This document shows positions 46,166 to 49,654 of a stretch of DNA of 64,000 bases, one piece after another. The notes under the pieces are model-generated. The model searched no databases, was not told the DNA's origin, and was given only the letters and a program-made list of their open reading frames with translations. Position 1 is the stretch's first letter, and each line of letters starts with the position of its first letter. The translations under genes were made by a program, and so were the position numbers. The DNA is from Salinibacter ruber DSM 13855 (lineage in GTDB: Bacteria; Bacteroidota; Rhodothermia; Rhodothermales; Salinibacteraceae): contig NC_007677.1 of NCBI RefSeq assembly GCF_000013045.1, positions 2,418,001 through 2,482,000 of the forward strand, in the 5' to 3' direction.

Positions 46166-49100
46166 ATGTCGTCTCCGCCGGCCGTCAACACCCCCGCCCC
46201 CGCCGACGCGACCCAGTCGGCGGCGGACACGGCCCTGTTCGGGAAAGACCCCATGCCCCGCCTCGTGGACGTCCACCCGATGATGGACCGTCCGTCGAAC
46301 GAGCCGGCTCGGGTGCGCGTCTACCAGCGGTCGGAGGACTTTGCCTCCATCCACGAGCAGGAGGACACCTTCTTTCCGTTTTTCTTCCTCTCCGACTTCT
46401 CGCTGCTCGCGGATCGGTACCGGAATGGGGACGTCCACACGGCCACGCCGCTCAACGGCGACAACTTCTACCAGTACCTGCTGACCTTCGAGACGTGGAG
46501 CGACTACTGGGACGCCCTCCGGCAGGTCGAACACCGATCGGACAGCGACCAGCAAGCGCCCGACGAGCTCTACCGGGTCGGGTCCCCCGCCCAGCAGTAC
46601 CTCATGCAGACCGGGCGGTCGTGCCTTCTCGGCATGACGCTGGACGACCTGCACCGCCTGCAGCTCGACATTGAGGTGTACTCCGAGGGCAGCTTCCCCA
46701 ACGCCGACCGCCCCGACGACAAGGTGATTATCGTGGCCCTCTCCGACAATCGGGGCTGGGACGAGGTGCTGCACCTCCGCGACGGGATCGGGGAGGAGCA
46801 GCTGCTCCAGGAGCTCGTCTATGTCCTCCAGGAGCGGGACCCGGACGTGATCGAGGGCCACAACATCTTCGAGTTCGACCTCGCCTACCTCCTCGACCGC
46901 TGCGCCCTGCACGGCGTCGACTTTGCCATTGGGCGCGACGGGTCGGTCCCCCGCACCTACGACTCCAGCATGCGCTTCGCGGAGCGGACGGTCGACTACC
47001 CGGCCGTCGACATCGTGGGGCGCCACGTCATCGACACCTACTTCCAGGTGATGTCCTTCGACGTGTTCAGCCGCGACCTCCCGGACTACAGCCTCAAAAC
47101 GGCCGCCCGCTACTTCGACCTCGCCCCCGAGGAGCGCACCTACATCGAGGGCACCGAGATCGCCAAGGCCTGGCGCACCGACCGGGCGACGCTGCTGGAG
47201 TACGCGCTCGACGACGTGATCGAGACGAAGCGGCTGGCGGGCCACCTCTCCGGCTCCACCTTCTACCTCGCCCAGATGCTCCCGATGACCTATGGCTCGT
47301 CGGCGCGGCGCGGCCCTGCGGGCAAGATCGAGAGCCTCTTCGTGCGGGAGTACCTGCGCCGGCGCCACGCCCTGCCCCGCAGCGAGTGGGGCAGCCAGTC
47401 GATGGGCGGCTACACCGACATCTTCATCACGGGCGTCCTGGGCCCCATCGTCTACGCCGACGTGGAGAGCCTGTACCCGTCCATCATGCTCAACTACGAC
47501 GTGCAGCCGTCCGGCGACACGCTGGACCTCTTCCCGCAGCTCCTGGAGCGGCTCACGGACCTGCGCCTGAAGACGAAACAGGACATGAAGGACGCCGAGG
47601 AGGAGGAAGTCCGCAGCGAGCTCGACGCACGGCAGAGCTCTTACAAGGTGCTCATCAATTGCTTCGACCCAGAGACAGAGGTCGTAACTGTCGATGGCAT
47701 TAGGCACGTCGAGGAAATCGAGGTTGGAGACCGCGTCTACTCTCTCAATCCGGACACCGGCGCGGTCGAGATCAAGCCCGTCACAGCCACCCAGTCTCAG
47801 CACTACGCGGGCCCGATGGTCGAGATAAAAAACCAGCACACTGATTTTCTGGTTACCCCGAACCACCGGTTCCTAACACAGAGGTTCACGTCCGGTGAAT
47901 ACACGGACCTGGAGTGGGAAACGGCCGGCGACATGCTGGGGGACCGGATTCGTCGCCGTTTGCCCTCTCTCCGCTCACTTCCCGCTACTCAAGAGAGACC
48001 GGGTCCGATTTCTCTATCTGCCGTGTGCGATCGACTTGCGATTGAGCACAAAACAGGCCCGCGCGGCATCAAGGAGCTTCGTCGACAAGCACGCTGGCAG
48101 CCGGAAGAATACGAATTGACCGACTGGCTTCGCATTCTTGGGTGGTTCGCAACGGAAGGAACGCTCTACAAAAGCAAAGCGCGGCAGTATGAGAATGGAA
48201 ATGTGCGCGGCGTCTCGTACCAGACGACCCTCTGCCAAAAAAACGACATAGGACGTTCTGAAATTGCGACCTTACTCAACCGGACAGGCATTACGTACAG
48301 CTCCGACCAGAACGACCACTCTTTCTGTTCGAAAGTGCTGTATGAAATCCTGGAGGCCGAGTGCGGATCGGACAGTTTCTCGAAGCACCTTCCCCCCTGG
48401 ATCTTTCAGCTTGGGCCCAAGGACCTGAAGATTGTATTTGACACCTTGATGCAAGGGGATAGCGCCGCAAATGGGGATCGTTTCACAACCTCCAGCAATC
48501 AGTTGGCCGAAGATTTTATCCGCCTTGCAATGCACATAGGGCGTCGCGCCTTTCACATGCCGAATGATGGCAGCCACCGAATTCAAGTAAATACGGTTCG
48601 GGGCCAGCGCCCGACGATCAAGCCGAAGCATCGGCAACAGGTGGACTACGACGGAATGATCCACTGCCTGACCGTTGCTGACAACCACACGGTGCTCGCA
48701 GGGCGCAATCGTAAGTTCAACTGGACGGGTCAGAGCTTCTACGGCCTCCTCGGCTTTGGCCTCTCGGCCTTCAACGACTTCGAAGAGGCCGATCGCGTGG
48801 CGCGGACGGGGCAACAAATTCTGCGCCAGTTGATCGACGAAATCCGGGCGCGCGGCGGCACCGTGATCGAGGTCGACACCGACGGGGTCCTGTTCGTGCC
48901 CCCGGAGGACGTGCGGGGGGAGCAGGCCGAGATCGACTACACCGTGAGCCTGACGGAGGCCATGCCGGAGGGCATCCGCGTCGGGTTCGACGGGCGGTTC
49001 AAGAAGATGCTGTCGTACAAGAAGAAAAACTATGCCCTCCTCACCTACGACGACGAGTTGAAGTTTAAGGGCTCCTCCCTCATCTCCCGCTCCAACGAGC

Positions 49101-49654
49101 CGTTCGGGCGCGACTTCGTCCGGAAGGCCATCCGCCGCCTCCTCGACCACGACGTGGCGGGCCTGCACGAGCTCTACGTGGACACCCGCGACAAAATCGT
49201 CAACAGCGACTGGGAGGGCGTGGAGCGCTTCGCTCGCACCGAGACGCTCAAAGACACGCTGGAGCAGTACGAGGCCGACGTGGAGGCGGGCCAGCGCCCC
49301 CGCGCCGCCACCTACGAACTCGCCAAGGAGAAGCAGAACCGCACGGGCAAGCCCGTGAAGAAGGGCGACCGCATCACGTACTACATCACCGGCGACGACG
49401 CCACCGTCACGGCCTTCAAGCACTGCCGGCGGGCCGAGGAGTGGGACCCCGAGGATCCGGACGAGAACACCGCCTACTACTTGAAACGACTCGACGAGTT
49501 TGCGAGCAAGTTCGAGCCCTTCTTCGACGAGGCCGACTTCCGCCTCGTGTTCTCCCCCGAGGATCTGTTCGGCTTCTCCGCCGACGGAATCGAGATTCAG
49601 CGGGAGGAACATGCGTCCGACTACGCCGAGGATCAGGAGGATGTCCCTTTTTGA
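46166..49654 (+). CDS. polB: Family B DNA polymerase interrupted by an intein
   Basis: A 1162-residue precursor; without the 358-residue intein the polymerase is about 804 residues. The exonuclease motifs are intact: LQLDIEVYSEG (Asp, Glu), EGHNIFEFDLAYL and YALDDVIET (YxxxD). The polymerase motifs are intact: VYADVESLYPSIMLNYD (DxxSLYPS), KVLIN..SFYG (KxxxNSxYG), split by the intein, and VIEVDTDGVLF (DTD). KKKNYAL is the KKxY element. So it is probably an active proofreading polymerase for repair or damage tolerance, like bacterial Pol II. Start at the ATG at 46166 is the first in frame. Stands alone; upstream is mazG-like and downstream a DUF4139 gene. Confidence 0.95.
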   Translation: MSSPPAVNTPAPADATQSAADTALFGKDPMPRLVDVHPMMDRPSNEPARVRVYQRSEDFASIHEQEDTFFPFFFLSDFSLLADRYRNGDVHTATPLNGDNFYQYLLTFETWSDYWDALRQVEHRSDSDQQAPDELYRVGSPAQQYLMQTGRSCLLGMTLDDLHRLQLDIEVYSEGSFPNADRPDDKVIIVALSDNRGWDEVLHLRDGIGEEQLLQELVYVLQERDPDVIEGHNIFEFDLAYLLDRCALHGVDFAIGRDGSVPRTYDSSMRFAERTVDYPAVDIVGRHVIDTYFQVMSFDVFSRDLPDYSLKTAARYFDLAPEERTYIEGTEIAKAWRTDRATLLEYALDDVIETKRLAGHLSGSTFYLAQMLPMTYGSSARRGPAGKIESLFVREYLRRRHALPRSEWGSQSMGGYTDIFITGVLGPIVYADVESLYPSIMLNYDVQPSGDTLDLFPQLLERLTDLRLKTKQDMKDAEEEEVRSELDARQSSYKVLINCFDPETEVVTVDGIRHVEEIEVGDRVYSLNPDTGAVEIKPVTATQSQHYAGPMVEIKNQHTDFLVTPNHRFLTQRFTSGEYTDLEWETAGDMLGDRIRRRLPSLRSLPATQERPGPISLSAVCDRLAIEHKTGPRGIKELRRQARWQPEEYELTDWLRILGWFATEGTLYKSKARQYENGNVRGVSYQTTLCQKNDIGRSEIATLLNRTGITYSSDQNDHSFCSKVLYEILEAECGSDSFSKHLPPWIFQLGPKDLKIVFDTLMQGDSAANGDRFTTSSNQLAEDFIRLAMHIGRRAFHMPNDGSHRIQVNTVRGQRPTIKPKHRQQVDYDGMIHCLTVADNHTVLAGRNRKFNWTGQSFYGLLGFGLSAFNDFEEADRVARTGQQILRQLIDEIRARGGTVIEVDTDGVLFVPPEDVRGEQAEIDYTVSLTEAMPEGIRVGFDGRFKKMLSYKKKNYALLTYDDELKFKGSSLISRSNEPFGRDFVRKAIRRLLDHDVAGLHELYVDTRDKIVNSDWEGVERFARTETLKDTLEQYEADVEAGQRPRAATYELAKEKQNRTGKPVKKGDRITYYITGDDATVTAFKHCRRAEEWDPEDPDENTAYYLKRLDEFASKFEPFFDEADFRLVFSPEDLFGFSADGIEIQREEHASDYAEDQEDVPF
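47660..48733 (+). mobile_element. Intein in PolB with degenerate-looking LAGLIDADG endonuclease domain
   Basis: 358 codons (residues 499-856) splitting the KVLIN^SFYG motif. It starts with Cys (CFDPETEVVTVDGIRHVEE, block A) and has the TxxH of block B (FLVTPNHRFLTQ). The centre carries LAGLIDADG-like blocks (WLRILGWFATEGTLY and LKIVFDTLMQGDS), in which one acidic residue is Glu and the second motif is poorly kept. The C-terminal blocks read MIHCLTVADNHTVLAGRN and KFNWTGQ, then Ser of the extein. The final residue is therefore Gln, not Asn, and the residue before it Gly, not His. Parts of it have visibly lower GC: 28 of 60 bases at 48241-48300 and again at 48481-48540, against 43 of 60 at 48841-48900 in the flanking extein. 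Confidence 0.95.

Follow-up and report, generated by a model that had tools for sequence, protein, structure and literature searches.

We identified an intein within polB of Salinibacter ruber DSM 13855, a gene that encodes the sole family-B DNA polymerase found in this genome (a 3,551,823-bp chromosome and a second contig, 3,587,328 bp in total). The window, i.e. the whole 64,000-nucleotide stretch of DNA that was analysed, carries the following features of the gene and its insert.

46166..49654, + strand: polB ORF, the intein-containing precursor, 1162 aa, with Pfam domains DNA_pol_B and DNA_pol_B_exo1
46166..47659, + strand: N-extein, 498 aa, last residues KVLIN
47660..48733, + strand: intein, 358 aa, Cys1 to Gln358, flanked by KVLIN and SFYG
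47660..47698, + strand: block A (residues 1-13) with the Cys1 nucleophile, C1 being invariant in A1, A4 and A5
47855..47866, + strand: block B core TPNH (T66, H69), both residues invariant
47990..48601, + strand: LAGLIDADG homing endonuclease region, about residues 111-314, a profile match to PI-PkoII residues 268-448
48134..48160, + strand: endonuclease block C, ILGWFATEG, acidic residue E166
48443..48466, + strand: endonuclease block E around LMQGDSA, acidic residue D267
48650..48703, + strand: block F (residues 331-348), Cys336 at F:4 and His343 at F:13, both invariant in A1 and A4
48710..48733, + strand: block G, RKFNWTGQ, with Gly357 penultimate and Gln358 terminal, invariant in ten Salinibacteraceae and four viral copies
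48734..49654, + strand: C-extein, 306 aa plus stop, the +1 residue being Ser of SFYG

The junctions read ...SSYKVLIN / CFDPETEV...HTVLAGRNRKFNWTGQ / SFYGLLGF..., the final intein residues being RKFNWTGQ. Pfam DNA_pol_B and exonuclease domains were found on both sides of the intein, and the NCBIfam model TIGR01445 (intein_Nterm) matches residues 499-571 with 25.2 bits against a curated cut-off of 24.5. In the same domain-model search no C-terminal intein model matched the precursor, which an unusual block G would lead one to expect. Intein-free homologues run unbroken across the joined extein (e.g. G003, 92.5% over 804 aa), and KxLINSFYG is also uninterrupted in the PolBs of intein-free phages. 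Since intein-free alleles span the joint, the boundary is fixed and is not a matter of choice. This confirms the original prediction of an intein that splits KxxxN^SxYG of a family-B polymerase and has TGQ as its last residues, the final two being Gly357-Gln358. An alternative boundary ending in a normal HN, which had been named as grounds for abandoning that reading, was looked for and rejected, as no such sequence is present and the joint is set by the intein-free alleles.

By organism and gene, this is the S. ruber PolB intein of Soucy et al. 2014 (YP_446104.1; PMC4071816). Table 3 of that paper lists two alleles, polB-a and polB-b, under one accession; the genome analysed here has one PolB with one intein. 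The word glutamine is absent from Soucy et al. 2014 (PMC4071816), and our literature search found no paper linking the Salinibacter intein to Gln. A second intein lies at another locus of the S. ruber genome (L190, G000:C1:175534); its host gene looks like a ribonucleotide reductase, and this intein ends in FN followed by Cys.

Class and predicted fold

Most features by which class 1 inteins are recognised are present. Residue 1, where Cys or Ser is expected, is an invariant Cys, block B contains TxxH (T66-H69), the Ser of SFYG supplies the Cys/Ser/Thr nucleophile at +1, and the predicted model has a HINT fold, with Z 14-18 to the HINT domains of many inteins. The canonical though not obligatory Asn end with a penultimate His is replaced by Gly357-Gln358; lack of HN is tolerated in functional class 1 inteins and so is compatible with membership (PMC4031507, which also describes the roles of positions F:4 and F:13 in block F). 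The final Gln before the +1 nucleophile, Q358, is the defining feature of Gln-terminated inteins of the Pab PolII and CIV RNR type. Assignment to class 3 was considered in view of C336 at F:4 and rejected, as Cys1 is present and the residue two after H69 is Phe71, not Trp.

The structure was predicted with AlphaFold2 from 19 alignment rows (mean pLDDT 93.9, pTM 0.90). The best PDB match of the model is PI-PkoII, the PolB intein 2 of Thermococcus kodakarensis (2cw7), with Z 27.3 over 337 residues and a Foldseek E of 3.7e-19. PI-PkoII is like the S. ruber intein in fold over the full length and shares its type of endonuclease, in which two LAGLIDADG motifs carry acidic residues, Glu in block C and Asp in block E; E166 and D267 align with these. 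It is however longer (537 aa versus 358) and only about 20% identical. Its polymerase motif is the same (KxLAN^SxYG), its first residue is Ser and its end is HN.

The Gly-Gln terminus and the splicing pathway

In a survey of 60 related genomes, S. ruber's own included, inteins occupy the motif-B site of PolB in ten, all Salinibacteraceae, and every one of them ends in Gly-Gln (GQ). The other nine copies are 45-96% identical to the S. ruber intein, and C1, T66, H69, C336, H343, G357 and Q358 are invariant among the ten. Two of these are mini-inteins without an endonuclease (G020, 188 aa, and G026, 189 aa) that retain every splicing residue and GQ, and part of the endonuclease of the G017 intein is missing through a large internal deletion. 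In the latter intein (L038) we also observed a short tandem repeat around residues 170-190, in which YTSKR occurs three times. Over the long term the splicing part has a low dN/dS (S. ruber versus G012, 0.083/1.018). PolB need not be essential, and a need for splicing is therefore indicated solely by the conservation of the splicing residues.

The same terminus is found in viruses. Eight complete viral PolB inteins (L061, L063, L163, L164, L166, L169, L170 and L171), about 30-41% identical to the S. ruber intein and inserted at KxxxN|SxYG-type sites, share its splicing residues and GQ end, and L173, which is cut at its start, is likewise GQ-ended. L061 comes from a 484-kb uncultured phage (megaphage) and has lost the acidic residues of the endonuclease while retaining the splicing residues and GQ. 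Other relatives differ at the end: L172 and L185 have Gly-Asn at an unchanged motif-B site, while in L174, L177 and L180 the insertion has shifted one position, to NS^CYG, with Phe-Asn or Pro-Asn as termini. Mapped on a tree of 32 inteins, GQ requires four changes, against a mean of 10.4 after shuffling. In remoter phage inteins, found in other genes, the usual ending is RRNGKxxWxGN, and thus a penultimate Gly is widespread in this kind of intein. Across the sequences compared, Gly-Gln is an old and strictly kept trait of an intein group shared with phages, and not an oddity of one copy. A phylum-wide search found no additional copy at the motif-B PolB site, and a plasmid search returned a single relative, a weak one located within a radical SAM gene.

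Several further inteins were seen in these genomes. The viral PolB of L169 holds two, the GQ-ended one at motif B and an HN-ended one at the GDTD motif. In two relatives, L041 and L044 (G001:C26 and G017:C51), PolB is interrupted at its exonuclease II motif (EGHN^C) by a second, different intein; it starts CFPxGTP and ends THN, and the S. ruber copy is without it. Three Salinibacteraceae genomes carry a UvrB intein at Walker A (L058, L059 and L060; GATGTGK | S...HN | TFT).

Very probably the S. ruber element is a class 1 intein that is active and has a LAGLIDADG endonuclease nested within it, and it belongs to a mobile PolB-site lineage in which Gly-Gln is old and selected; its invariant residues are the ones that such an intein, cleaving by Gln cyclisation, should have. 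Gln-ended inteins follow the same pathway with cyclisation of Gln and are known to splice, and the penultimate His is absent in about 5% of functional inteins (PMC4031507). In addition, replacing the penultimate Gly of a phage intein by His slows its splicing, which goes to completion with the native Gly, and an upstream His in block F is able to substitute for the penultimate His (PMC5050341). From these reports we infer a likely path through Cys1, Ser+1, Gln358 and His343. Cys1, assisted by T66 and H69, would undergo the N-S acyl shift; the N-extein would then be passed to the polymerase Ser+1 as a branched ester; cyclisation of Gln358 to a glutarimide would free the intein, with His343 of block F standing in, by analogy, for the missing penultimate His; and an O-N shift would finally yield intact PolB with KVLINSFYG.

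The known systems resemble the S. ruber intein in different respects. The PolII inteins of Pyrococcus abyssi and P. horikoshii share the C-terminal Gln and a DNA polymerase host (PMC4031507, PMC8229266), but they are mini-inteins in the large subunit of PolII/PolD, that of P. abyssi (Pab) is reported to be slow, and that of P. horikoshii (Pho), unlike the S. ruber intein, retains the penultimate His. The phage intein mentioned above, from gp51 (RDF) of mycobacteriophage Bethlehem (PMC5050341), is class 1 as well, although its host gene is another one and its terminal residue is assumed to be Asn.

The original prediction held that an intein ending in this way must splice through Gln cyclisation or be slow. 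Cyclisation as the expected route is supported by analogy with the Gln-terminal inteins that use it (PMC4031507), whereas slowness does not follow, given that phage inteins often have a penultimate Gly and that one such intein splices fully and is slowed by His (PMC5050341). The intein could nevertheless be crippled, loss of HN having led to slow splicing or mostly to cleavage in a cell that tolerates a poor supply of PolB, and the Gln-ended Pab and Mma PolII inteins are indeed slow and improve with Asn (PMC4031507). We consider this very unlikely. A damaged terminus would be expected to revert, vary or disappear, yet GQ is invariant over ten hosts and kept in most viral copies, including copies free of the endonuclease; moreover, the native Gln of the CIV RNR intein splices better than Asn, and the phage intein with penultimate Gly points the same way. 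Rather than a defect, Gly-Gln is probably an unusual variant of known chemistry that works.

Mobility, endonuclease state and source

The intein is mobile, and the intein and polymerase trees conflict. On an extein tree of 38 polymerases the presence of the intein corresponds to seven changes, all of them forced by well-supported branches, and a tree on which the carriers were forced together was rejected (AU p 5e-35). G012 has the intein whereas G001, with an almost identical polymerase, has none. The inteins of G025 and G017 group with the mini-inteins while their polymerases group with that of G019; the extein grouping was rejected on the intein data (AU p 1.5e-8) and the intein grouping on the extein data (p 3.9e-6). 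Horizontal movement, as originally proposed, is thus real. An intein tree mirroring the polymerase tree, which had been suggested as evidence to the contrary, was not obtained, although the shallow branches agree.

Between S. ruber and G010, the intein has a synonymous divergence of 0.029 and the extein one of 0.097 (p 0.0017), the lower intein value resting on few substitutions. This fits recent exchange, but it carries little weight as the flanks have recombined. In the 150 bases 3' of the intein (48734-48883 of the window) the two differ by about 9%, with 13 synonymous changes, far more than in the intein. From the last 190 bases of polB (49466-49654) onward they are only about 50-80% identical, while G010 and G003 remain similar over this stretch, mostly at 90-95%. 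On these alignments a recombination or rearrangement point adjoins polB.

The LAGLIDADG blocks had been described as degenerate on account of Glu as one of the acidic residues, and loss of the endonuclease had been suggested. Both acidic residues are present, E166 in LGWFATEG and D267 in LMQGDS, and E166 is conserved in every aligned full-length copy except that of the megaphage L061. Glu in block C was therefore rejected as a sign of degeneracy: intact relatives carry it, as does PI-PkoII (LLGYYVSEG), which is reported to be an active endonuclease (PMC6759347). What stands of the suggestion is possible early decay, to which the recent substitutions point. Over the long term the endonuclease region is under strong selection (S. 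ruber versus G012, dN 0.124 and dS 1.483). Versus G010, however, it shows 12 nonsynonymous and two synonymous changes, which fits no selection (p 0.75) and differs from the extein with its 11 nonsynonymous and 35 synonymous changes (Fisher p 5e-5), and recent substitutions in the S. ruber lineage look neutral. That the endonuclease of the S. ruber copy is already inactive has, in our view, a little less than an even chance. Besides the unselected pattern, S. ruber alone has Ser at position 268, beside D267, where most relatives have Gly, and the G010 intein carries W162G and has one residue deleted. Set against this are the two retained catalytic acids, the low long-term dN/dS, and the near-identical polymerases with and without the intein in G012 and G001, which imply recent gain or loss within the group. 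Selection on the endonuclease would thus have been long-standing and apparently relaxed in the recent S. ruber lineage.

Base composition had been offered as a further sign of recent transfer. GC is 0.559 and GC3 0.659 in the intein, compared with 0.668 and 0.946 in the N-extein and 0.642 and 0.909 in the C-extein. The same drop in GC3 occurs in all ten Salinibacteraceae hosts and in the viral copy L063. In the copies compared, low intein GC is a standing property that is uninformative about this one; as it is common to deeply diverged copies and to every host, it does not date the transfer and was rejected for that use.

Haloarchaeal genomes are mostly GC-rich, and low GC is therefore no pointer to co-resident haloarchaea, the source from which a recent import had been proposed. 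Such an import seems unlikely and the proposal is unsupported by the inteins sampled, although Soucy et al. 2014 (PMC4071816) report S. ruber PolB inteins as falling among those of Halobacteria in their allele trees, the intein has a lower GC3 than its extein, and the motif-B site is occupied in PolBs like those of haloarchaeal viruses (the L170 polymerase shares 54% identity with that of Halorubrum tailed virus 25). Low GC3 is common to every copy, including deeply diverged ones, and in our tree of 32 inteins, where the haloarchaeal side is represented by virus-like copies, the inteins of haloarchaeal-virus-like polymerases form a clade of their own (100/99) apart from the Salinibacter clade (100/100). 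The annotated PolB genes of the haloviruses HRTV-25 and HF2, at 828 and 855 codons, are too short for such an intein. A better candidate, though one we hold to be rather less than evenly probable, is that viruses are the main carriers and that the PolB of Salinibacteraceae was colonised from a phage polymerase. Viral PolBs hold related inteins at the identical site, and the Salinibacter phages M8CC-19 and SRUTV-1 have a homologous, intein-free PolB (about 41-45% to the N-extein) with a vacant and intact KxLINSFYG. One tree placed L164 among the Salinibacteraceae copies (97/97, AU p 0.045), but this placement was unsettled once more rows were added, and we make no claim that L164 is nested in that clade. 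In addition, no intein-bearing Salinibacter phage was found. The GQ lineage itself moves between Salinibacteraceae chromosomes and is present in viral PolB genes.

Implications of a Gly-Gln intein lineage

The S. ruber locus on its own is a largely ordinary result: a catalogued intein whose class is known and whose terminus is uncommon. The usual description of Gln-ended inteins is of isolated variants that are often slow. In the present case a single Gly-Gln end has persisted over deep divergence, in cells and viruses and even where the endonuclease has been lost, and some relatives at this very position end in Gly-Asn; it thereby becomes directly testable whether cyclisation of Gln is a disadvantage or a step that has been tuned. 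It also means that one polymerase site holds related inteins in chromosomes and in viruses.

We tentatively propose, as a possibility that is less likely than not, that a motif-B PolB intein lineage extends across halophilic bacteria and the viruses of bacteria and archaea, with GQ as its ancestral and optimal end and with switches to Gly-Asn (L172 and L185) or, with a one-residue shift of the site, to Pro-Asn or Phe-Asn (L174, L177 and L180). If this is true, the GQ lineage would be a natural experiment on the tuning of the final splicing step, and splicing may perhaps provide a salt-dependent release of active polymerase.
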